A DNA stretch of 64,000 nt. It comes from a virus. The DNA lies in the IMG/VR virus record IMGVR_UViG_3300011258_000777, positions 1 through 64,000 of that record; one strand, 5' to 3'. Shown one piece after another: positions 5,679-38,041 of the stretch; the first letter of the stretch is position 1, and each line of letters begins with the position of its first letter. The notes beneath the pieces were generated by a model. That model made no database searches, was not told where the DNA came from, and saw only the letters and a program-made list of their open reading frames with translations. Position numbers and translations under genes: made by a program.

Positions 5679-5905
5679 TTACCACACGCTTTACATTTGG
5701 AAACAAACTTGGCTTTTCTCTCCTTCATGCCAATTTTAATCTTCTTGAAGTTCTCGACACGATCCTTTAGCACCTTTCCATTATGGAGTGCCTTGATGTG
5801 TGTGCCCGTGTAAGCACCACATAACACGATAGCCTGCGAGGGGACATAGAGGATGTATTCGCCAGGGTGAGGATAAGCATCCTCAGTAATGTCGTAGAAC
5901 TCCAT
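5675..5905 (-). CDS. Hypothetical protein (76 aa)
   Basis: A 76-residue protein, acidic at the N-terminus (MEFYDITEDAYPHPGEYILYV) and basic at the C-terminus, where C-K-A-C could bind metal. The start overlaps the previous stop (TGATG) and the stop overlaps the next start (ATGA). No family recognised. Confidence 0.65.
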   Translation of the reverse strand: MEFYDITEDAYPHPGEYILYVPSQAIVLCGAYTGTHIKALHNGKVLKDRVENFKKIKIGMKERKAKFVSKCKACGK

Positions 5906-6825
5906 CAGTCGTCCAGGGTCATAGATTGGTCGTAGGCTTTGTATTTCAACTTGGTTAATGTATCAAGGAGATCGTTGCGGCGCAACAACTTAAATGCGAT
6001 GTTCTCGGGGCTAAACTCCATAGCCTCCGTGTCGAGCCCTGCTTGCCTCATAGTGCGAATCTTTTTCTTCAAGCGGTCAACGTGCCTAATCACTTTTTCA
6101 AACTGACCACGGTCAAACATAGCGTCTATAGAGGCAATCTGTTGTTCTATGTCTGAGGCTTTCTTCTTGGCTGTGTCGAGATCGACCGAGCGGTCTATTT
6201 GTTCGGGATGGTTTATCCACTCATCATCCATAACAGAGTAGACGCCAGAGGATGAATGCTCCTCGCCAACATCCTCAACATAAAGTTCTACTTCATAGCC
6301 TTTGATAGTTATGTCGTGATGTTCATTCCAACGCAGGCGCTTGGCATCAAACATTTCCTTCACCAACTCTTTGTTGTCGTCCAACTCTTCAAAGTCTATA
6401 ACGATGTGGAGGTCTATGTCGGAATACTTTGACCAATTGTAGTTTGCGAGGGAGCCTGTGAACCTGAGATCTTGGATTGTTACGTTAAAAGGTAAGCCAT
6501 CAATGAAATCATTTGCGATCTCTGTTAGCTTCTTTCCGATGAATGCGCGTAGCTTCTCATCTTTCCAAAGACGGGGCTCCAACTGATCATTGATTTGGAA
6601 TCCCTCGGGATCAACCTCAAGAACCTCCTCAAAACGATACTTATCAGTCCCAAATGAAACCTTGCCTTTGTAGGGATCGCTGGCTATCTGACCTTTGATA
6701 CCCTTAGCTTGGGTATACATTTTGCCATTCTTCTTACGTTGATTCTTTAGTGCTCGCTGAGCGTCGTTCCCCATTATCTGTGAGGGGGGTGGCTGTTTAC
6801 GCTGGTCTACTTTCTTCTGGCTCAT
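5905..6825 (-). CDS. Nucleotidyltransferase-fold protein
   Basis: A 306-residue protein with the Pol-beta-type nucleotidyltransferase signature: GS at 124-125 (RFTGSLANYNWS) followed by DID at 136-138, and a third carboxylate in the GYEVELYVED strand. Similar proteins occur in many T4-like phages; their substrates (RNA, protein or small molecule) are unknown. The first 60 residues are basic. The C-terminal part is a long helical region with many Lys/Arg and possible coiled coil. The ACTATTTAT motif sits 25 nt before the ATG. Confidence 0.78.
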   Translation of the reverse strand: MSQKKVDQRKQPPPSQIMGNDAQRALKNQRKKNGKMYTQAKGIKGQIASDPYKGKVSFGTDKYRFEEVLEVDPEGFQINDQLEPRLWKDEKLRAFIGKKLTEIANDFIDGLPFNVTIQDLRFTGSLANYNWSKYSDIDLHIVIDFEELDDNKELVKEMFDAKRLRWNEHHDITIKGYEVELYVEDVGEEHSSSGVYSVMDDEWINHPEQIDRSVDLDTAKKKASDIEQQIASIDAMFDRGQFEKVIRHVDRLKKKIRTMRQAGLDTEAMEFSPENIAFKLLRRNDLLDTLTKLKYKAYDQSMTLDD

Positions 6826-7403: not shown

Positions 7404-8138
7404 TTACTCCGTTAAAGAACCGAAATCAATCTGCCAGATGGGGACTACGATTACAAAGTTGTTTAAAACCTGATAGCCGTACTCATTTGCTCCCACATCC
7501 AGCGCCATAATTATTCCGATTAGTTCTCCTCTTTCGTCAAACACGCCAGAGCCGGATGCTCCAGACCAAGCGTAAGTTTGCACCACTAAGTAGTCTCCAG
7601 TGAAGCCAGAGATGTTTCCAGTCCAAGTGGTAGGTCCTATACTATTAGGATAACCCGTGTAGTAAGTCTTGTCAAGGAGGTTGTAGCTCTTTTTCCAAGA
7701 ACCAAGTGCTCGTGGAACTTTGATTGCCGTTCTTGTCGGCAGTTCCTCAACTTCAAAGATAGCATAATCTGAATCGCGATCAATCTTTACGACTCTTTTG
7801 CAAATCTTGTAGTCCTTTATATGAAATATCATTAGGGTTTCGCATTCACTAATGATCCCGTGAGCAGAGGTTAAAACATAATACTTGTCCTCGAAAACAA
7901 AGTAGGTTCCGCTCAAAGAGGACACACTACCACTCTTCACATCCATAGAGACTACACGGACAGCAGAATTGACCGATCTTCTGATTGCCTGCTTCTGATT
8001 TATGTCGTAATGTTTTGAGACAGTTTGGTAACTATGGGGACTCTGTGGTTGTGGATGCAAAGAGAGCAAGGTTATAAGAAATAATCCAAAGATGGCACCC
8101 AAGATTATGGTTCCTAAGCTACGGATTAATTTCTTCAT
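7404..8138 (-). CDS. Membrane-anchored trypsin-like serine protease
   Basis: A 244-residue protein with a basic N-terminus and one hydrophobic segment at residues 8-27, so it should be exported or anchored in the inner membrane facing the periplasm. The following domain is a chymotrypsin/DegP-type protease: His in TSAHG (H93), Asp in DSDYAIFEV (about D124), Ser in GASGSG (S195). No PDZ domain follows. The ribosome binding site is AGGAGAGC. A periplasmic protease is unusual in a T4-like phage; it might act on superinfecting phage, envelope proteins or lysis. That role is inference. Confidence 0.75.
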   Translation of the reverse strand: MKKLIRSLGTIILGAIFGLFLITLLSLHPQPQSPHSYQTVSKHYDINQKQAIRRSVNSAVRVVSMDVKSGSVSSLSGTYFVFEDKYYVLTSAHGIISECETLMIFHIKDYKICKRVVKIDRDSDYAIFEVEELPTRTAIKVPRALGSWKKSYNLLDKTYYTGYPNSIGPTTWTGNISGFTGDYLVVQTYAWSGASGSGVFDERGELIGIIMALDVGANEYGYQVLNNFVIVVPIWQIDFGSLTE

Positions 8139-8146
8139 CTGCTCTC

Positions 8147-11100
8147 CTAGACCTGCCTTTGATAAGAGATGAAAACTGGGACCTCTTCTACTCCTGCCTT
8201 GATTGCGTAACGCAAATCATCTTCATTTCCAGTTATCTTTGCTCTCCCGTTCTTGCCGATCGCTAAGTAAATAGGGTCGCGAGTACCATTCTGAATAAAA
8301 TTCTGGTATCCTGCATCAAAATGATGTCCGTGCTTTCGGGGCTCTCTGCCGCAGAGATGTTTCAAGTCCTCAACAGGCATCATTACGCTGTATCGCGTTA
8401 GGTTGTGGTTTGTTGGCTGATCATACATAACCCCACCCTCAACCCAGTCATCTATCAGATTTTGAATAGATGGGAGCGGAGTTGTTCTGCCGGGGGACTG
8501 CCTCATCGTTGAGTTGTAGTAAGACTCTTCAAGTGACTGCCTGCTTGAAGAAATCAATTCGGCTCGGTCTACCTTGTGGATACGAATTTTTGGACTAATC
8601 TTATGTATTTGTGGTAGAAGCACTTGTCTGACCCACTCTAATCTGTTCTTTTGCCCACGGAGAGCAAACTTTAGGCGCTGGAGTGATAGTGTTCTGTTGC
8701 CTTGTGATCTTTTTGCGTTACCAACGGTTCTAACAGTCGTTACATCAGGGATCGCACGGATAATGTTGTGAATGTCGGTAATTTCAAAGCCTTGACCAAG
8801 AGGATAAGACATAACATAGTCAATCTCGTAGAGTCTCACATCAAGCGGATTGCCTGCTTCTTGTAGCGACTCTCCTTGATCTTCAGCATCCCACTTGGCT
8901 AGCTGATCTTTGATTGGTCCTGCGACTGCTTTTTTCATAGTTTCGATCAACATACCCAAGCGTTGTAGGAAATTAGCGTAGCCTTCTGCGCTTTCACGAG
9001 AAACCTCTGGGTTGAGAATTGCTGCTGAATTTATAAAGTCAACAAATGAGGGATTCAATCCATCCACTATCATCCAGAACCTTGAATCTGCCTTCTTGGC
9101 AGAGTCGATCCTCGCGCTTCGTCCGGCACCGAGGACGCGGATAGCTCTACTAGCATCGCCGGCTGCGACAAAGGAGATGCCCAAATTAGGATTTTTAGTT
9201 GATAGTAGTTCAGACGAGTCTGTTATTTTTATCAATTCCAGAATGACCTGCGTGTCGGAGTCGTTCTGATTGGAGCCGGACCAGATCAGTTGTTCCTTAC
9301 TTGGCTTAAATGGCAATTCTATTGCAATTATATCAGTCTCCTGTTGCCAGAAGACTCTGGGCTGATGCCCCACCATCTCACCACCTACCAGCAAGCGGTT
9401 GGTTGGAGTGTTTTCTCCATAAACTTCATTGAATTTCTGTAGTTTCTCATTACAAGCAACTCGTAATTCTTCTTTTGCTTCTGGTAAACTATCATCTTCA
9501 AGATCGCTGGTGATCCCCGTCTCTTGAGTGAGGTATCTTGCTAACTTCTCGAAAGATTCTTTCGAGTTGCCGTATTTCCCAAGTTCATCATTATGAACGG
9601 CTCCAGTTAGATTCACAAACTCTGCGATGTGTTTCCAAAACTGCTCTAGTGGAGCGTCGTTGCCGCGTCCTTTGATTTGGTAGATTGTTTTTTTAATACC
9701 TGGATTGTAAGAAATTGTTACATAAGACCTAGATTCTTTTTTGCCCTCGTCTTTCTTTCGGAGTGAGTAGAGGCTCCCCCACATACCCATACCGCAGTGC
9801 CCCATCCTCTCGCCCTCGTTTTTACATCTTGAAGTCTTGAGATCATACCAGTAAGATCCATCATCAAATCTGTGGATAATCTGGTCTGGGTTTTCGATTT
9901 TTGCTTGGTATTCCTCCATTGCCTCGTTCGCCGCAGACCAATCCCAGTCGGGGAAGTCTTTTATCATTTCGTAGTTGTTGGGGTTTTGATTTAGAGTAGT
10001 GACCACGCTGTTTATTCTTTCTTTGAGAAAGTATTTCAAAGTCCCTTGTAGTCCTCTATCAACTAATCGTAGAATCTTATCTGTTATTGTCTGATCAGCA
10101 CCGAGCTTGCTCGCTGCTTTTACGAAAGACTTGCGAGCCTTAATAACTTGTTTTATGTTTCCCGTGCGAAGGGCACGATCAAGATTCAAAAAAGGATTCG
10201 CTTCGGGATTGTCCCCAAACTGAAAGAGTTTGTAGTGCTCATCAACAAGAGTAATAAGTTCTGCTAGCATCCGATCTCTGGCAGGACCTAAGATGGCGTA
10301 TTTTTTAAAAGCATTACCGACCCAAACGCGACCTTTCTCGCTTGCTTCGGGCAGAAACTCCGTAATCAGACCAACCAAGTCATCAGGCAGTCCGATGTCG
10401 GCTAAGCCTTCTGTGATCAATCCCTCTTCAACAGGTAGACTTGTGTCTGAGCCTGTTCTCTGTTGGTAAACTTCTTCTGCTTTCTTCACTTCTGCTCTGA
10501 CGCCCTTCTGGAAACCCTTGATCATCACATCAAAGTGATTATCGTAGTATTCGATGTAAGGTCCGAGAACAGGGAAAGTGTTCTTGTCCATAATAATTGT
10601 AATCTTGTAATTAATAGAGGGTGGCGTTCCCTTGCCTGCTGGGGTTGTGGTGATACCAATGAAGGCACCTTGTTCTATGATCTCAAATGCCTTATCAAAA
10701 GTATCTTCAGGAATTTGTTCGTATTTCTCTCCAAAGTTCAGTTTCATCTGGTTTTTGGCGAAAGCCTTGGCTCGGCTGTCGTGTGTAAACACGGTGTCCA
10801 AGAACTCGTGTCTTAGAGCATGACCCCAGTAAGATCCGTTTTCTTGTCTAAAGAGCGATTGATTGAATCCAACCTGCTTGAGTGCCTGCATTTGCTCTTC
10901 GGTCGCCTTAAACAAAACACCAGAAGCAAACAATTCTATCACATCTCTTTTTGCTTTGGTTGAAGTTGCGACCGTAAAGTTGTTGAATTCTTCCTCAACC
11001 TTGTCGATGTATCCCTTGTAATCGGGGCGCTTTGTGAGGTTCTTTGAGATTAGGAGATCTTCGATTGCATCAAGTGAGTCGTCAAGATCGTCAACCAATT

Positions 11101-12619
11101 CGTTGACGACTTCATACCATTCTTCGAATGCATCTGCGTCGGTGATGTCGAAGTTGTCAGCAGCGTATTCTGCTAATGCTTGACTAATGTCCCAAAGAAC
11201 AACGTAAGTATCAGAACCTTTTGTCAATTGCTCTCGGTCTTCTCTCATTAGTCTCGACATGTTGTCGGCTTTAAGGAATGCCTGTGCGTAGTTGTCTGCC
11301 TTGACCAAGTAAGCATAAGCCTGACTGTAGTGGTGTGCGTCTCTTATAATGTCGTTTCTATCTTCTTCTTGGACGATCTTCATTATTGCTTCTTCTATTT
11401 CGTCGCCAAGAGCAAGGTCTTGGGGGTCTTCGGAGCCAACAGCGAAAAAAGTACGCATCTTTTCTTCAGACAAATCAAATGGTAGCTTGGAAGCAATGGA
11501 ACTTACACTAGCACCCCACACAGGGGTGTCGCCATCAAATCCATCTAGTACATCAGTCGAAACACCATCAAAGTCTACCTGCTGGAAATAATCTGTACCT
11601 CTCCAGCTATTCTCAAGGCGTTCTACTTGTTCTCTGAACTCCTCCAACCTTTTCTCGAATGAACCCTCGAAAGAAATGCTGGTGTTATTATTAAGCCATT
11701 GTCCCATTTCTTCAAAGCCCTCTACGTCATTAGAATACTCGCCAGTTTCTTCTAATTTCTCTGCGCCTGTAATCTCAATGAACTTTGCAACGTGATTCCA
11801 TAGTTCTGATGGCGGTGCTGAGTTCTGGCGACCCTTGATTTGGTAGATGGTTTCGTTTTGGGTGTTGTAGGCAATAGTGATGTAAGACTTAGAGGCTTTC
11901 TTGCCCTCTTCTTTTTTGCGTAGTGAGTAAAGCGTGCCCCGTTCATCTCCGCCGCAGTGACCCATTCTATCACCTTCCATGCTGCACTGGTAACTGTCGA
12001 GGTCATACCAGTATGAGCCATCCTTGAATACGTGCATAATTTTATCAGGGTCTTCCTGTGTTTTCTGGAAATCAAAACACTCTTTTTCAGCTTGTTGATA
12101 ATCGCTGGGAGGAATGTCTTTGATTAACTGATAATTGTTTGGGTTCTGGTTGAGAGTAACGATAACATTCTCAATGCGACTGATAAACCAATTCCAAGTT
12201 CTCTTTTCAAGAACTTTAAAATCAATCAGCACTTGTCTGGCTGCGTCATCGGGAAAATTAAATTTCAGCACATTTTTGGCGAACTTGCGCTTTGCCTTTG
12301 GCCACTTACCAGCAGGCTGTGTTGTGTAGGTGCTTATCAGGTCAAGCAAGATGTTGTTATCTCCGCGATGGAATGCGTCCAGGGTGGCTCCCGCCGTCGC
12401 GTTTCTGAGATAACCCTCAAACCAGCCATAGTTGGAAATTCTCTTTCCATCAAGAGACTTCCAAGCAGCACCAACCCACATACGACCTTTCTCGCTTGCT
12501 TCGGGCAGCGCAGCCTCTATCTCTTTTTGGATCATCTCATCCAATCCAATGTCGGCTAAGCCTTCGGTGAGTACCTCTCCTCTTATGTGTTTAAACCATT
12601 TATCAGTCGCAAAAGACAT
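8147..12619 (-). CDS. Giant duplicated protein (1490 aa), possible packaged polyprotein
   Basis: A 1490-residue protein with two related halves. Unit 1 (residues 20-736) and unit 2 (738-1253) share GLADIGL, LPEASEKGR-x-WVG, NQNPNNY, SYWYDL, a RMGHCG...SLYSLRK block and Y-Q-I-K-G-R. The HCG/SLR block resembles the PcfJ-type element of plasmid and phage proteins, but that link is tentative. The C-terminal 90 residues (about 1400-1490) look like a ParB/sulfiredoxin-like domain (PIYLAIGKNGRAKI, EVPVFI). LxE followed by Gly or Ala occurs at E19, E737 and E1254, at the domain boundaries, as expected for sites of a T4 gp21-type prohead protease. The start at 12619 has GGAG 6 nt upstream; an in-frame TTG at 12631 is rejected. 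Confidence 0.75.
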   Translation of the reverse strand: MSFATDKWFKHIRGEVLTEGLADIGLDEMIQKEIEAALPEASEKGRMWVGAAWKSLDGKRISNYGWFEGYLRNATAGATLDAFHRGDNNILLDLISTYTTQPAGKWPKAKRKFAKNVLKFNFPDDAARQVLIDFKVLEKRTWNWFISRIENVIVTLNQNPNNYQLIKDIPPSDYQQAEKECFDFQKTQEDPDKIMHVFKDGSYWYDLDSYQCSMEGDRMGHCGGDERGTLYSLRKKEEGKKASKSYITIAYNTQNETIYQIKGRQNSAPPSELWNHVAKFIEITGAEKLEETGEYSNDVEGFEEMGQWLNNNTSISFEGSFEKRLEEFREQVERLENSWRGTDYFQQVDFDGVSTDVLDGFDGDTPVWGASVSSIASKLPFDLSEEKMRTFFAVGSEDPQDLALGDEIEEAIMKIVQEEDRNDIIRDAHHYSQAYAYLVKADNYAQAFLKADNMSRLMREDREQLTKGSDTYVVLWDISQALAEYAADNFDITDADAFEEWYEVVNELVDDLDDSLDAIEDLLISKNLTKRPDYKGYIDKVEEEFNNFTVATSTKAKRDVIELFASGVLFKATEEQMQALKQVGFNQSLFRQENGSYWGHALRHEFLDTVFTHDSRAKAFAKNQMKLNFGEKYEQIPEDTFDKAFEIIEQGAFIGITTTPAGKGTPPSINYKITIIMDKNTFPVLGPYIEYYDNHFDVMIKGFQKGVRAEVKKAEEVYQQRTGSDTSLPVEEGLITEGLADIGLPDDLVGLITEFLPEASEKGRVWVGNAFKKYAILGPARDRMLAELITLVDEHYKLFQFGDNPEANPFLNLDRALRTGNIKQVIKARKSFVKAASKLGADQTITDKILRLVDRGLQGTLKYFLKERINSVVTTLNQNPNNYEMIKDFPDWDWSAANEAMEEYQAKIENPDQIIHRFDDGSYWYDLKTSRCKNEGERMGHCGMGMWGSLYSLRKKDEGKKESRSYVTISYNPGIKKTIYQIKGRGNDAPLEQFWKHIAEFVNLTGAVHNDELGKYGNSKESFEKLARYLTQETGITSDLEDDSLPEAKEELRVACNEKLQKFNEVYGENTPTNRLLVGGEMVGHQPRVFWQQETDIIAIELPFKPSKEQLIWSGSNQNDSDTQVILELIKITDSSELLSTKNPNLGISFVAAGDASRAIRVLGAGRSARIDSAKKADSRFWMIVDGLNPSFVDFINSAAILNPEVSRESAEGYANFLQRLGMLIETMKKAVAGPIKDQLAKWDAEDQGESLQEAGNPLDVRLYEIDYVMSYPLGQGFEITDIHNIIRAIPDVTTVRTVGNAKRSQGNRTLSLQRLKFALRGQKNRLEWVRQVLLPQIHKISPKIRIHKVDRAELISSSRQSLEESYYNSTMRQSPGRTTPLPSIQNLIDDWVEGGVMYDQPTNHNLTRYSVMMPVEDLKHLCGREPRKHGHHFDAGYQNFIQNGTRDPIYLAIGKNGRAKITGNEDDLRYAIKAGVEEVPVFISYQRQV
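8861..12619. repeat. Intragenic tandem duplication in the 1490-aa gene
   Basis: Two diverged copies, about 10412-12562 and 8861-10408, encode related units. A 26-nt stretch is identical at 12483-12508 and 10329-10354, and the LTE-GLADIGL region is also nearly identical at DNA level. The rest has diverged strongly. Confidence 0.8.
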
Positions 12620-12637
12620 TATTTTCTCCAATAACGC

Positions 12638-14433: not shown

Positions 14434-14724
14434 TTACCCCTTAAGGATGTAATTGCGCTTGTTTAGTGCTGATTCAACTGCGTCGGGGTCGCCGATGACC
14501 GTGATCTCAGTACCAGTTGTTCCCTTGTCGATTGTAATCTTTGAGAAGCGGTGCTCTTTGTCGAGACCTTCTGTGAGCAATCCGTTCTCATTTAGATTGC
14601 GAAGACCATGTTCCTCTCTCACCATTACAACGTGCTCTGGGTTTACAAACACTTCTCGCAGTGAATAACGGCGACCAGTTGTTACGGCACCTGTTCCACA
14701 AATCTCAGTTAGTCTAACTAGCAT
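14434..14724 (-). CDS. Hypothetical FlbD-like small protein (96 aa)
   Basis: A 96-residue protein starting MLVRLTEICGTG at an ATG preceded by AGGAG; the frame opens 6 nt earlier with TTG. The segment REVFVNPEHVVMVREE resembles small FlbD-type proteins, which are short beta proteins of unclear function in many phages. It contains the sequence LLTE-GL, matching the LxE sites found in other proteins of this window. Confidence 0.62.
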   Translation of the reverse strand: MLVRLTEICGTGAVTTGRRYSLREVFVNPEHVVMVREEHGLRNLNENGLLTEGLDKEHRFSKITIDKGTTGTEITVIGDPDAVESALNKRNYILKG

Positions 14725-14947
14725 TTTCAAACTCCTGTGTAATTGGATAAATCTCTTTCATTCTAACACTCCACACCTTCTGTCTATAATAGATATATCC
14801 CCAGCGTGGTTCCTTCGAGTCTTCCTCCCAGAATAAGGCACGGATAGGTTTTGGGCATCTTAGGTAGCCATCTCCGCTCTCTATTTTATTCTTATTTCCT
14901 AAGAGTAAGACTCCTTGCGGAATGTGAACTAAATCGCCTCTAGTCAT
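14714..14947 (-). CDS. Conserved small phage protein (77 aa)
   Basis: A 77-residue protein beginning MTRGDLVHIPQGV, a start typical of a small protein I recall from T4-like cyanophages. It is tryptophan and tyrosine rich (RWGYIYYRQKVWSVRM), probably a small beta-barrel. Its ATG overlaps the groEL stop (ATGA); a longer frame from 14998 lies inside groEL and is rejected. Confidence 0.68.
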   Translation of the reverse strand: MTRGDLVHIPQGVLLLGNKNKIESGDGYLRCPKPIRALFWEEDSKEPRWGYIYYRQKVWSVRMKEIYPITQEFENAS

Positions 14948-16524
14948 TGTGGCACCTGTATAATTCCATAGTTGGTTGTGATAAGAGTTCCAGCACAAGA
15001 CGCTGCGTTCTTCAGTGCTGACTTTGTAACCCTCACTGGATCTAATATACCACGCTCATAGAGGTTTGTCAAGGTTCCTGTGCGGAAGTCATAACCCATT
15101 TCATCAGGCTGGTCGAGAACATGCGCTAGTAGCAAATCTTCACTCTTTGCTCCGTTTCTACACATCTGTCGGAATGGCGCTTGGCACGCTCTCTTAACTA
15201 TGGTCATACCAATTGCCTGTTCATCGTGGTCGGTCACAATTGAGATTGAGTTGCTGGCTCGCAATAGAGCAGTGCCTCCACCACCAATCACACCTTCTTC
15301 TTGTGCTGAGCGGACTGCCTCAAGGGCATCTTCGATGCGATGCTTCTTTTCTGTCATCTCGACTTGAGTTGCGCCGCCGACGTGAATAACAGCAACACCT
15401 GACGATAGGCGAACAATGCGTCCTTGGATGCGCTCGCATTCTGCGAAGTCGTCTGTGCTTGCGATCTCGTTCTTTAGACTCTCGATGCGATTCTCCACAC
15501 CTTCATAGTCGCAGTTGCCGCCTACAAGGATTGTTCCAACCTTTGTGCTCTCAACTGACTTAGCTGTGCCAAGTTGGTCGAGAGTCGTGGTCTGTAGCTT
15601 CTGTCCTGACTCTCTGGTGATAAATGTAGCGCCCGTGGACATAGCAAGATCTGATAGTAGGTTACGGCGCTCCTCTCCATAGAATGGGGCTTTGATTCCC
15701 GCAATCTTTAGAGACCCGCGCATAGCATTCATAATCATAGCAGCGAGGGCTTGCCCCTCAATGTCCTCTGCTACGATAACAAGCGGGCGAGCCTCTCGTG
15801 CTACCAATTCAAGGATGGGTAGGATCTGCTCGACCTGTGTAATCTTGTAGTCTGTGACCATCACAAGCGGCTCTTCATAATGCATTACATTGCGGCGCTC
15901 GTCATTAACAAAAGCAGAGGCGCAATAGCCAGCGGAGAATCGGAAACCCTCAGTAACATCAATCGAGGTGTCCATAGATCGAGACTCTTCGATTGTTATA
16001 GACCCGTCCTGCCCAACTTTATCAACAGCCAAAGCGATGAGATCGCCAATAGTAGAATCATTGTTGGCAGAAATGGTAGCGATGTGCTTGACATCATCAA
16101 TGCTTGTAACCGGTCGTGCCATCTCCGTAAGGTTGTTACAGATTTCTGAGACTGTCGCATCTATTCCCCTTTGTAGTTCAATTGGAGAAACACCAGCTAC
16201 GATGTGGCGCTGGGCTTCGTTCAGGATTGCTCTCGCAAGGACGGTGGCTGTAGTAGTTCCATCACCTGCGCTTGTGTTGGTTTCATTTGCTGCTTGGCGG
16301 ATAATCTGTGCGCCTGCGTTCTCAAACTCGTCTTCAAGGTTGACGAATTGGGCTACAGTTACTCCGTCCTTGGTCGCAAACGCTGTCTTGTCTTGCTCCT
16401 TTAGGAGCACGGTTCGACCCTTTGGTCCGAGAGTGGAGGAAACATAGTCTGCGAGAGTGTTTGCTCCATTTAGAATCTTCTGTCGCAACTCTTCGTTGTT
16501 TGCGAACACCATTTTGTTTGTCAT
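14944..16524 (-). CDS. groEL: GroEL chaperonin
   Basis: A full-length type I chaperonin of 526 residues. The ATPase elements are intact: TLGPKGR, TKDGVTVA (the Asp52 equivalent), GDGTTTATVLA (Asp87) and RIEDALEAVRSAQEEG (Asp398), with GILDPVRVTKSAL near the C-terminus. It lacks the Gly-Gly-Met tail of bacterial GroEL. It probably forms a folding chamber for phage proteins, perhaps the capsid protein, which in T4 needs host GroEL with phage gp31. A GroES/gp31-like partner is encoded at 37769-38041. The ribosome binding site is GAGG, and a TATTTAT motif lies 16 nt before the ATG. Confidence 0.95.
   Translation of the reverse strand: MTNKMVFANNEELRQKILNGANTLADYVSSTLGPKGRTVLLKEQDKTAFATKDGVTVAQFVNLEDEFENAGAQIIRQAANETNTSAGDGTTTATVLARAILNEAQRHIVAGVSPIELQRGIDATVSEICNNLTEMARPVTSIDDVKHIATISANNDSTIGDLIALAVDKVGQDGSITIEESRSMDTSIDVTEGFRFSAGYCASAFVNDERRNVMHYEEPLVMVTDYKITQVEQILPILELVAREARPLVIVAEDIEGQALAAMIMNAMRGSLKIAGIKAPFYGEERRNLLSDLAMSTGATFITRESGQKLQTTTLDQLGTAKSVESTKVGTILVGGNCDYEGVENRIESLKNEIASTDDFAECERIQGRIVRLSSGVAVIHVGGATQVEMTEKKHRIEDALEAVRSAQEEGVIGGGGTALLRASNSISIVTDHDEQAIGMTIVKRACQAPFRQMCRNGAKSEDLLLAHVLDQPDEMGYDFRTGTLTNLYERGILDPVRVTKSALKNAASCAGTLITTNYGIIQVPQ
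15044..15072 (-). promoter_or_regulatory. Possible sigma-70 promoter inside the 3' end of groEL
   Basis: TTGACA (15067-15072), 17-nt spacer, TATATT (15044-15049). It could supply the small genes from 14947 downward independently of groEL. Confidence 0.55.
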
Positions 16525-18603: not shown

Positions 18604-19293
18604 TTACATTATCTCGTCGGCAAGACCATACTTAACAGCTTCTTCGGCAGAGAGATAGATGTTTACCTTTTCATTAAGTAGTTTCTCCAACTTCTTACGG
18701 GTGAACTTGGTGTTCTCAACCATAGCGGTGATGTAATCTTCCTGTAGTGTCTGGATAGCTTCCAACTCATTTGTTAGGTTAGGGAGCGTTCCAAAGTTGC
18801 CTGCGGCGACATTGTGAATCATAACTCGGCAGTTCTTGCCGATCTTGCGCTTGCCCTTTGTTCCTGCTGCGAGGAGTAGGGTTCCAGCGGACATAACCTT
18901 GCCGACGCCGATGGTGTGAATTTCGGTCTCTTCCATTACAACCTGCATCACATCGTAGAGAGCGAACATATCGTCTGCGCTGCCGCCGTAGGTGTTGATG
19001 TAGAACTCAACGGGCTTCTTTTCTTTGCCCTCTGGGGCTATGCGGTTCATTTCGTTTAGGTAAAGTAGGGCTTGGGTAAGCTCTGCGATCTTTTCATCTT
19101 CGACGCTAGAGTAGAGTCCAATAACGCGAAGCTCTGGCTCTTTAGCCATATCGCCACCAAGTAGTTGCTCAAGACTGATAGTCTTGACTTCAGGCTCGGA
19201 GCCACCAGTAGAGGCTGCCTCTTTGGTTGCTGCTTCTTTCTTTACCGGGGGGAGCACCGTATCAAGAATCTTTCCAATAATTTTACGCATCAT
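18604..19293 (-). CDS. clpP: ClpP-like protease (Asp to Asn in triad)
   Basis: A 229-residue ClpP-family serine protease with a roughly 45-residue N-terminal extension rich in Lys/Ala. The catalytic Ser lies in KVMSAGTLLLAAG and the His in CRVMIHNV. The third residue, Asp171 in E. coli (D-R-F-L-S-A), is Asn here (V-N-I-Y-L-S-A). Asn at this place is known from Listeria ClpP1, so activity is still possible. It might degrade host or phage proteins with a host Clp ATPase, or work in head maturation. The start overlaps the upstream stop (ATGATG). Confidence 0.88.
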   Translation of the reverse strand: MMRKIIGKILDTVLPPVKKEAATKEAASTGGSEPEVKTISLEQLLGGDMAKEPELRVIGLYSSVEDEKIAELTQALLYLNEMNRIAPEGKEKKPVEFYINTYGGSADDMFALYDVMQVVMEETEIHTIGVGKVMSAGTLLLAAGTKGKRKIGKNCRVMIHNVAAGNFGTLPNLTNELEAIQTLQEDYITAMVENTKFTRKKLEKLLNEKVNIYLSAEEAVKYGLADEIM

Positions 19294-27270: not shown

Positions 27271-27299
27271 AATATAGCCCGTCAGGCGGCTTCTGTCAA
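27271..27299 (-). promoter_or_regulatory. Sigma-70 promoter of uvsE
   Basis: TTGACA (27294-27299), 17-nt spacer, TATATT (27271-27276), overlapping the last codons of purA. Confidence 0.85.
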
Positions 27300-28289
27300 G
27301 CCCTTTTCGTCCGAGATCGTGCGGGGGTTGTCAGAGAAATAAATCTTATCTATTCCTAGTCTCGCACTAAACTGTTCTTGCAAGAATGACCGAAATGATG
27401 ATTCATTCTCAACATAAGCCTCAGTTGTTCCCCAAGAGCCGACCTCTCGCAAAATGTCCACTTTGTTTATAACAAGGCGGTTGACTCCGTTCATGCTAAT
27501 GGCACGCTGGACCTCCTTCACGTTTATCCAATTACACTGCCTCACACGCCCTGTGGTGGCTCCAAATTCCTGCCCGACCTCTTGGATGCGGTTGAAGATT
27601 TCAGAGGCTGGCTGGAAGCTACGGGCTCCTACATAGGTCTCGTAAGCTTTGATGATGCCCCAGACATTGCGAATAGAGCGGGGGCTGATGCCGTTCTGGA
27701 TGGCGGCAGCCGTGCCTGTGTGTGAAGACGTTACAAACGGGTAATCGCCCCAGTCAGGGTCAAGCCAGAAGCCTTGTGCCCCTTCCATCAAGACCACTGT
27801 GTCGCCTGATAGCTCTTCGTAAATGTCTACTAGATAAGGTTTGAAGTTAAGTACGTCGCAGGCGCGAATGCCAGTCCGACCATACTTATCACGATAAGCA
27901 GGTCCATTACCAGTTCTAGTTGTTCCAATCTTCTCGTCAGCGCCGTCTTCGATTTTGTGGTCTTCGGTGATAACATGAGCATTTTTTGCGATCCTTAGAT
28001 GTTGCCGCACGGGGATTCCGTGGGATTCTAAGTAGTCTATCTCTTCTTCTAACTTCATCGGATCAATCACGCAACCGTTGCCGATTACTGATGTAACTCC
28101 GAAAAAGACGCCTGCTGGGATGTGATGGGTGACAAACTTTTTTCCATTATGGAAGATCGTGTGTCCCGCATTACAACCCCCATTGAATCTAACGCAATGG
28201 GTGTATTCTCCACTCTTGAGCAAGTGGTGGGTAACCTTTCCTTTACCCTCGTCTCCGTGTTGGAGACCAATAACAACGTCGGTAATCAA
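27282..28289 (-). CDS. purA: Adenylosuccinate synthetase (short, archaeal-like)
   Basis: A 335-residue PurA-family enzyme, much shorter than bacterial PurA (about 430) and close in size to archaeal PurA and phage PurZ. GLQHGDEGKGK at residues 8-18 keeps the catalytic Asp13, followed by GGCNAGHTI, G-T-T-R-T-G-N-G-P-A-Y and EGAQGFWLDPDWG. Retained Asp13 speaks for normal PurA (IMP + Asp + GTP) rather than PurZ, which I recall lacks it. It may start with TTG at 28289, five bases after AAGGAGG; the longer frame from 28319 has no ribosome binding site. With the IMP dehydrogenase it controls both branches of purine synthesis. Confidence 0.88.
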   Translation of the reverse strand: MITDVVIGLQHGDEGKGKVTHHLLKSGEYTHCVRFNGGCNAGHTIFHNGKKFVTHHIPAGVFFGVTSVIGNGCVIDPMKLEEEIDYLESHGIPVRQHLRIAKNAHVITEDHKIEDGADEKIGTTRTGNGPAYRDKYGRTGIRACDVLNFKPYLVDIYEELSGDTVVLMEGAQGFWLDPDWGDYPFVTSSHTGTAAAIQNGISPRSIRNVWGIIKAYETYVGARSFQPASEIFNRIQEVGQEFGATTGRVRQCNWINVKEVQRAISMNGVNRLVINKVDILREVGSWGTTEAYVENESSFRSFLQEQFSARLGIDKIYFSDNPRTISDEKGLTEAA

Positions 28290-28394
28290 GTTTCCTCCTT
28301 GTTTCTGAACTTGTACCAATAACTTAACATAGGGAGCGAACTAATGCAAGCGAAAAGTGCTGCCCACTCTCCGTGGCAATTCACTAAGTGTTCC

Positions 28395-33951: not shown

Positions 33952-34826
33952 AATCTTTCCAGAATTCTTTTTTGTGCTCTCGCTATGTCGGGGAGTCGTA
34001 GTAGAAGTGCTTCTTCAGTAATCTTCGGAACTTTGATCGAATCTGTCTCCAACCAAACTGGAGGAGATGATAGGAATTTATCACGATTGATCGCTTCAAC
34101 CTTGAAACTTCTGTATCTTCTTTTTCCATCTGCTTGCCATCCATTCTTTGTTCCTCTCAGTCCTAATTCCCTCATTTTACTGACGGTTGTGAGCCTCACT
34201 ATGGTCTCTGAAAAATCAAAGTCATCTATCTGCTCTTCAGTTAAAATTGAAAGCACGCAGGCATCCTTCACGGGCAGCCTGCCATCGATTCTAGGTGATA
34301 AATAAAACCAAACCTTGTTGCAAAATGAATCTTCAGTCTCTATCAGATCAAGGTGATGTTTCCCTCCTCTTGAGAATGCCAAAGTGTCATAAACTTGATA
34401 GGTTTTTGGCTTATCCTCGCAAGATAAAAGGTTATAGGTTGCGTGCTCATCAAAGTAGTGGCACACGCCAAATCTTACTGTCCTCAACTTAGCATAGTCG
34501 GAGTGACCTGTCAATTCATTTTCGTAAATTCGTAATGAACTACATAGATCAGAGAACGGAGCAAGTCCTTTAAGTCCGAGAACAAAAAGAAGATGCTCCC
34601 ATAATGCTGTCTTAGGCTGCCCTGTTGATCTCTCGCCAATTGGAGTCGTCCAAAGTTGTGACTCATTATGGAGACCCCAACTAGACAAGTCAACAGAAGG
34701 CGAGAAGTGATCAAATTGGTGGGGCTTCTCTGGTGTTGTAAAAAACACCGGGAAATCGTTAAGAGAAGCAAACAGGAGAGCGCGAAGCGAAGAACCAACT
34801 ACAATTTCATCGTAGTAAGGATTCAA
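33936..34826 (-). CDS. Hypothetical protein with FAD/NAD-binding-like start (296 aa)
   Basis: A 296-residue protein whose start (YDEIVVGSSLRALLFASL) resembles the first strand and glycine loop of FAD-dependent oxidoreductases, as in related cyanophage proteins. Later dinucleotide-binding motifs are not evident. The frame starts with TTG at 34826, overlapping the upstream stop (TTGA), with GGGGG upstream. Its product and the 294-residue neighbour probably work together, as they do as a pair in related phages; function unknown. Confidence 0.62.
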   Translation of the reverse strand: MNPYYDEIVVGSSLRALLFASLNDFPVFFTTPEKPHQFDHFSPSVDLSSWGLHNESQLWTTPIGERSTGQPKTALWEHLLFVLGLKGLAPFSDLCSSLRIYENELTGHSDYAKLRTVRFGVCHYFDEHATYNLLSCEDKPKTYQVYDTLAFSRGGKHHLDLIETEDSFCNKVWFYLSPRIDGRLPVKDACVLSILTEEQIDDFDFSETIVRLTTVSKMRELGLRGTKNGWQADGKRRYRSFKVEAINRDKFLSSPPVWLETDSIKVPKITEEALLLRLPDIARAQKRILERLWLNT

Positions 34827-35455
34827 CTATCCCCCTTCATCTCCTGTAGGACCTGCTTTGCGAGTCGTGAGATAAGAAACTTGGTGTTGTTTTGCATTCT
34901 TGCTTTAGTTTCAAGACCCTCGGCAAACTGAATTGGTCTCTTTGACTTACCAACGCGAGTCATAAACTCACCTTCTTTGCCGCCTAGGAACTCGCCTGTC
35001 TCTTCTTCGTTGCCGTAGCCAGGAAAGTCAGCGTCGTTTGTTCCAATAAGGTAAGATTGTTCGCCGCCGCGAGGAACAAACAAGACAGAATCCTGACAGA
35101 AGTGCTCGCCGAGACCAGTTATTGTGTCCTTGAAATTTGGATCATCTTTAAGATTCACAACAAAGAAAGAGTCTTCCTTGACCTCTTTGGCTGCGTCTGT
35201 TCCAAAATACTCAACGTAGGTTCCATCAACATCTGTGACGCCATAGCCCTTGTTGAGCAGAACAGCTTTTAGCTGGCGGTTGCGCTCATAGTTCTCCATA
35301 GTGTTGCTATGATCAGGCATACACTTTGTTCTATCTTTATTGTTGTCGCGAAACGCTGTCATAAACCCGGTGTCGTGGTTAAGAATGTGTTCATAGGTGC
35401 GACTGATTGAACTCTCTGTTAAGAATTCCTTCCACTCTGTTATAACTTTTTTCAT
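34823..35455 (-). CDS. DUF3293-like protein with possible head-targeting leader (210 aa)
   Basis: A 210-residue protein. Residues 60-150 (YERNRQLKAVLLNKGYGV, SFFVVNL, EHFCQDSVLFV) match the order of DUF3293-type proteins. The N-terminus is MKKVITEWKEFLTE followed by Ser, a short leader ending in LxE as in T4 internal proteins. Ribosome binding site TGGAG; a CTATTTATAG motif lies directly before it. Function unknown; packaging in the head is inference. Confidence 0.65.
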   Translation of the reverse strand: MKKVITEWKEFLTESSISRTYEHILNHDTGFMTAFRDNNKDRTKCMPDHSNTMENYERNRQLKAVLLNKGYGVTDVDGTYVEYFGTDAAKEVKEDSFFVVNLKDDPNFKDTITGLGEHFCQDSVLFVPRGGEQSYLIGTNDADFPGYGNEEETGEFLGGKEGEFMTRVGKSKRPIQFAEGLETKARMQNNTKFLISRLAKQVLQEMKGDS

Positions 35456-37768: not shown

Positions 37769-38041
37769 TTAATCGATTACTCCTATTACATAGTTCTCTA
37801 AAATCGTGTAATAAGTAGAATGTTCAATAACTAAATCGCTCAACATCTTCTTATTGATGACGATTTTATCACCCTTCTCACATTCAAATGACACATCGTC
37901 AGCCACGCCAAGAACTTTTACTATGATGTGGTTTTCTTCTGGAGCCTTGTAATCATCTGGCAACAAGATCCCAGAGTCTGATTTCTCCTGTGGGGGATTG
38001 TAATCAACTAGGATGTGTCTGTTTACTGGTCTAATCATCAT
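37769..38041 (-). CDS. groES: GroES/gp31-like co-chaperonin
   Basis: A 90-residue protein beginning M-I-R-P-V-N-R-H-I-L-V, like GroES (M-x-I-R-P-L-x-D-R-V-x-V). The mobile loop is EKSDSGILLPDD, with the hydrophobic G-I-L-L (residues 24-27) that docks on GroEL, and GDKIVINK follows as in GroES. T4 gp31 is the functional analogue. Its natural partner is the phage GroEL 21 kb downstream, or host GroEL. The start may be the first or second ATG (38041 or 38038); GAGG fits the second better. Confidence 0.85.
   Translation of the reverse strand: MMIRPVNRHILVDYNPPQEKSDSGILLPDDYKAPEENHIIVKVLGVADDVSFECEKGDKIVINKKMLSDLVIEHSTYYTILENYVIGVID

Follow-up and report, generated by a model that had tools for sequence, protein, structure and literature searches.

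In bacteriophage T4, the prohead protease gp21 cuts after the motif L/I-x-E. The T4 internal protein IPIII carries a capsid-targeting sequence (CTS), in which residues 4 and 7 are needed for targeting and residues 8 and 10 for processing (PMC9026906). Another example of head proteins has been described in phage P1, where DdrB and DarB are very large multidomain proteins of the head, the former with a ParB/Srx domain and the latter with an N-terminal targeting signal (PMC5512222, PMC9024508).

The protein considered here, P0001, is encoded on the minus strand at 8147..12619 of the window, the whole 64,000-nucleotide stretch that was analysed (positions 1 to 64,000 of IMG/VR virus record IMGVR_UViG_3300011258_000777). 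Besides genes for replication, tail sheath and tape measure, this 69.9-kb record has one for a major capsid protein of the T4 type, which among named phages comes nearest, at 43-49% identity, to the capsid proteins of Flavobacterium phage immuto, Microcystis phage Mel-JY01 and Rhodothermus phage RM378. The open frame of P0001 begins with ATG at 12619, has an alternative upstream TTG start at 12631, and gives a protein of 1490 amino acids in which two related units are followed by a C-terminal region. The relatedness of the units, proposed in the original prediction, is borne out by an alignment of the protein with itself (residues 16-459 of unit 1 with about 734-1160 of unit 2, 35% identity, E=8e-72). 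LxE followed by G or A is likewise present where it had been claimed, as V-L-T-E19-G, L-I-T-E737-G and S-L-Q-E1254-A, and four further such sites occur (E40, E410, E758 and E1047) among 22 LxE in total. A plain LxE count was dropped as evidence for cleavage, the 22 sites not being above chance; with these boundaries making up three of 22 LxE and three of seven LxE-G/A, a motif tally is weak by itself, and position and conservation decide.

It is proposed that P0001 is a head-packaged protein on the T4 internal-protein route. The first 19 residues would bind the prohead core and serve as the capsid-targeting sequence, a gp21-type prohead protease would cut after L-T-E19 in head maturation, and the body would stay in the head and be ejected with the DNA. 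The place between leader and C-terminal domain would be a cassette slot, which in relatives is filled by a unit of the long or the short type or, in one damaged copy, left empty; in this phage, recombination would have placed a long unit directly ahead of a short one that came with its own leader end LITE|G. One leader would then load two cargo units, the same protease would probably separate them, and a third cut ahead of the ferredoxin/ParB-like region is possible. To the core of this explanation, leader-directed packaging with a probable cut at E737, we give a probability of roughly 0.64; packaging with removal of the leader is considered likely. No catalytic activity could be assigned to the parts of P0001, and the three separate effectors of the original prediction, delivered with the DNA, are hypothetical; the use that T4 and P1 make of head proteins suggests that P0001 may contribute to early take-over or anti-defence (PMC9026906, PMC5512222, PMC9024508).

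The leader (residues 1-19, MSFATDKWFKHIRGEVLTE; 12563..12619, minus strand) is similar to the T4 CTS. In 61 distinct relatives its consensus is M(S/D)(F/I)(A/S)T-x-x-W-F-x-[HYF]-[LIV]-x-E, with [LI]-x-E|G or A later on, and the spacing W8..[HYF]11-[LIV]12-x-E14 is that of Y4..F7-I8-x-E10 in T4 IPIII; all targeting positions stand at the IPIII spacing (site A) in 56 of the 61. P0001 retains W8, H11 and I12 and has G in place of E14, so that the cut is expected at E19 (predicted site 1, E19|G20; 12563..12565, minus strand). Of the 61 distinct relatives, a set that includes the window, about 60 have [LI]xE|[GA] there: a script scored 60, one of them (L112 type) having it at residue 30, possibly by chance, and the last one, L018, is read by eye as LTE|A; the leader and relative counts are overstated, because genomes and leaders are related and hence not independent. 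At this site P3 is only L or I and P1 is E, P2 takes eight different residues, and where a few residues are inserted the site is displaced but [LI]xE is retained; a fixed P3 and P1 with a free P2 agrees with the L/I-x-E motif of T4 gp21. The GL.DIGL that follows the E19 cut is also conserved, and N-terminal conservation by itself could come from folding. Two outlying relatives (L140 and L142) do not have this leader form.

The gene set can be judged in three relatives whose records are of sufficient length, G004 (191 kb), G005 (155 kb) and G006 (194 kb). In these, the leader spacing pattern is found in eight, seven and ten proteins respectively, versus about one expected in each from internal stretches, and the bodies of these proteins belong to about 17 unrelated families, which makes the leader portable. 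The same pattern in T4 matches ipII, ipIII and one other protein, and it is not enriched in the cultured immuto, which has the nearest capsid protein. A gp21-family protease (PF03420) is encoded by all three long genomes (in G004 at 149754-150353), with E about 1e-30 and scores over the curated cut-off. PF03420 was found neither in the 70-kb record of the window nor in the other short records, all of which are fragments, and the failure to find the portal family PF07230 in short records shows nothing, the search having had no positive control. Capsid proteins of the group have LLRE|S or LLRE|A (LLRE|S in the window's record) just ahead of the conserved mature part, which is the expected place; the T4 gp23 counterpart, in a correspondence read from the sequences, is FLTE|A. 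The original prediction of a head-targeting leader that is removed from the N-terminus after E19 is thus well supported, by the leader's conservation, its T4 targeting spacing, its reuse on unrelated proteins and the gp21-family protease of three near-complete relatives.

Unit 1 (residues 20-737; 10409..12562, minus strand) is of the long type, and its AlphaFold2 model has a mean pLDDT of 83.7, with the last ~10 residues disordered. The model has no fold match in the PDB (best E 0.02), and in BFVD it matches three unnamed viral proteins (E<1e-3) and, weakly, one 'PcfJ like protein'. A PcfJ-like core at residues 196-310 (11690..12034, minus strand) has the form R-M-G-H-C-G ... L-Y-S-L-R-K ... 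Y-Q-I-K-G-R-x-N; its motif residues are invariant in alignment A4, and it scores 17.5 bits against Pfam PF14284, under the 25-bit gathering threshold. Unit 2 (residues 738-1254; 8858..10408, minus strand) is of the short type and has a second PcfJ-like core. In the tree, unit 1 is sister to the L004 unit (77% identity to the L004/L013 unit, support 99/100), and unit 2 groups with the short unit of L015 and not with unit 1, in a join that lies between long branches. A recent in-place duplication was rejected on this ground, and the separate grouping of the two units indicates that unit 2 came from another allele; its identity to L014 is up to 48%, and a search of viral contigs with unit 2 as query returned no relatives.

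Predicted site 2 (E737|G738, LITEGLADIG; 10409..10411, minus strand) adjoins the disordered stretch at the end of the unit 1 model. Unit 2 begins with a retained leader end, GLITEGLADIG (the sequence from G738 on is GLADIGLPDD, that from G20 on GLADIGLDEM), in which 24 of 27 bp are identical to the gene's own leader, including a 17-bp exact run, and L015 has an identical LITEGLADIG at its own N-terminus; judged by this match at the DNA level, site 2 is a copy of site 1 that was brought in with unit 2. The E737 site is absent from every one-unit relative found, and in the nearest of these SLPVEEARANPLD leads straight into the C-terminal domain. Among the relatives found, the two-unit arrangement is seen in the window only.

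The C-terminal region (residues 1255-1490; 8150..8857, minus strand) was modelled with a pLDDT of 71.5. Foldseek places a ferredoxin-like domain (2x3d, 3bpd, 2raq), which had not been predicted, ahead of a ParB/sulfiredoxin-like part, which had; the latter matches ParB, Noc, KorB, PadC and sulfiredoxin with probability about 1.0 and E of only 1e-3 to 1e-2. The region has no match in Pfam, and the ParB/sulfiredoxin-like assignment is thus one of predicted fold. KITGNEDD is conserved where ParB has a GERR-type box, TGNEDD being present in every row of alignment A3 that reaches the end, and the usual active-site Arg (GERR or GxHR type) is not kept, with Asp (GNEDD) instead.

Just before this region lies the possible site 3 (E1254|A1255, SLQEA; 8858..8860, minus strand). 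Of 44 distinct relatives, 37 have an LxE at most 14 residues ahead of the C-terminal domain, and among control 14-mers the share is 10%; the motif is missing from seven, P3 being V, M or Q in most of these. Most of the stretches that carry it come from one clade and read EQIxRIDxLLxEKD, a probable amphipathic helix that could account for the LxE there, P1' is often Lys, and the flanks of the site vary. A cut at E1254 is regarded as possible, at less than even odds. The original prediction had gp21-type cutting at all three boundaries and named the keeping of LxE there in homologues as a test; by this test the leader site at E19 is supported, and for E737 and E1254 the picture is mixed, the former site occurring in no other relative and the latter being common with variable surroundings.

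If P0001 is packaged, a cut at E737 is reasonably probable. In its full form, the proposal would make P0001 a head-cargo polyprotein, in which a single leader serves to load two or three proteins as cargo, the prohead protease frees them in the head through copies of the leader site, and cargo units are swapped as cassettes bordered by LxE; this is put forward tentatively, at a little under even odds. The units might instead stay joined as one ~163-kDa cargo that is packaged and loses its leader, the internal LxE being a fusion scar and a helix. The second unit is found in no relative, most of the 22 LxE in P0001 are surely uncut, and the LxE ahead of the C-terminal domain lies within the probable helix EQIxRIDxLLxE, often with K next, all of which would suit a single cargo; LITE|GLADIG, however, is none other than the leader site, and the stretch ahead of it is disordered, so that if E19 is cut E737 should be too, and a joined cargo is considered unlikely.

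Relatives were found by a search with the C-terminal domain (17 loci) and with a profile of the PcfJ-like core (73 loci). They have one unit and, where complete, the C-terminal region, and the place of P0001 is taken by a relative of 766-1009 residues in near relatives and of 1132-1232 residues in distant ones. In L018 there is no unit, and the leader is joined directly to the C-terminal domain via LTE|A; this gene has a frameshift near its 3' end (L018, 8600-8624), which is either a sequencing error or a sign of a decaying copy. The leader remnant of unit 2, the one-unit relatives and the L018 join together indicate that leader, slot and C-terminal domain act as cassettes bordered by LxE or its remnant. 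No match in annotated phages was obtained by tblastn with the whole of P0001 or with the core and C-terminal domain of L022, and this lack of a homologue there would be in keeping with a cytoplasmic, unpackaged phage protein, in which the N-terminus forms a structural helix or binds a partner and the LxE are incidental. Such a protein is improbable given a leader form common to unrelated bodies, the direct join of leader to C-terminal domain in L018, and a site at which P3 and P1 are fixed and P2 is free.

The proposal that P0001 is ejected cargo has also been weighed against the possibility that it is a prohead core or assembly protein consumed in maturation, like T4 gp67/gp68. Core proteins are cut at several LxE (PMC9026906), and some of the leader-bearing proteins in the relatives flank the protease gene. 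The gene for P0001, however, lies at a distance from the head cluster and has GroEL-like, cupin and trypsin-like genes as its neighbours, and the long, confidently folded units of the protein and their cassette exchange are unlike acidic core proteins, which makes this possibility slightly more improbable still. Processing by the neighbouring trypsin-like serine protease rather than by a gp21 homologue is very improbable, even with a gene (7404-8138, minus strand; Trypsin_2 domain) directly downstream of the P0001-type gene in most relatives checked, since that protein has an N-terminal hydrophobic stretch and hence probably acts outside the cytoplasm, P0001 has no signal peptide, and L/I-x-E is the known gp21 motif.

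Several other genes of these phages were recorded. A 210-residue protein at 34823-35455 (minus strand; MKKVITEWKEFLTESS...) begins with the same CTS-like leader, has homologues in G003 and G004, and its body matches the Pfam S-adenosylmethionine lyase family PF23780 over the cut-off (7.8e-12); if delivered with the head, this predicted SAM lyase could blunt restriction when the DNA enters. A 380-residue protein of G004 (63759-64901, equivalent to L037:3759-4901) has the leader MYQKFWNQFLVEQ and weak similarity to protein kinases (PF00069, 2.4e-4), with a homologue in G005. A conserved neighbour of P0001, nucleotidyltransferase-like by eye (5905-6825, minus strand; L022:10765-11664; L019:10017-10913), starts with the leader-like MMKEWNDYLASIDEA in the distant clade, and the window copy is not leader-like. 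In L092, the linker upstream of the C-terminal domain carries ...NLKTGAPYTKKGKRAGTDRLRFEEV, like the N-terminus of the corresponding neighbour in L007, an apparent recombination between the two adjacent genes. The phage also encodes GroEL-like (14944-16524), GroES-like (37769-38041) and ClpP-like (18604-19293) proteins, all on the minus strand, the last of which also matches several PHROG head-maturation protease families, and a small protein at 14434-14730 (minus strand) whose internal LLTEG is not a leader and acts as a decoy in motif-only searches. A short adenylosuccinate synthetase of 345 residues (27282-28319, minus strand) retains HGDEGKGK and scores under the PurZ cut-off, so that a PurZ/Z-genome reading is unsupported and the protein is PurA-like; an IMP dehydrogenase-like gene is present in the same phage (21113-22228).

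If the proposed packaging route is correct, the T4 capsid-targeting system would reach a large group of uncultured phages, and a sequence rule would be at hand for recognising their head-delivered proteins, including the predicted SAM lyase. Head cargo would then evolve through cassette exchange and fusion at protease sites, and, if the polyprotein reading is also true, a phage could raise the number of its cargo proteins without a second leader. The 19-residue leader is directly testable in T4.

Among described families and systems, PcfJ-like proteins (PF14284) share the HC...SLR...QIKGxxN core with P0001, which differs in scoring under the Pfam cut-off and in having several hundred unmatched residues around the core. 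The polyvalent proteins DdrB and DarB of P1 are similarly very large and multidomain, and DdrB has a ParB/Srx domain, whereas P0001 has a T4-like leader, no Pfam match to DdrB-ParB or to a metallopeptidase domain of the kind used in DdrB-type self-processing, and no conserved active-site Arg. T4 Alt, an ADP-ribosyltransferase of 682 residues, is a large packaged protein processed by gp21, as P0001 would be, but no sequence relation between them was found, Alt has no duplication, and no ADP-ribosyltransferase domain was found in P0001. There is also a likeness to T4 IPI, IPII and IPIII (PMC9026906), which have a short N-terminal leader with aromatic/aromatic-I/L-x-E spacing, a cut at L/I-x-E such as is predicted in P0001, and the same leader on unrelated proteins. 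Their leaders have Y/F where P0001 has W, and that of P0001 has a second site five residues on; the internal proteins are of 95-193 residues with one cargo, in contrast to the 1490 residues of P0001, with its two predicted cargo units and a second copy of the site inside.
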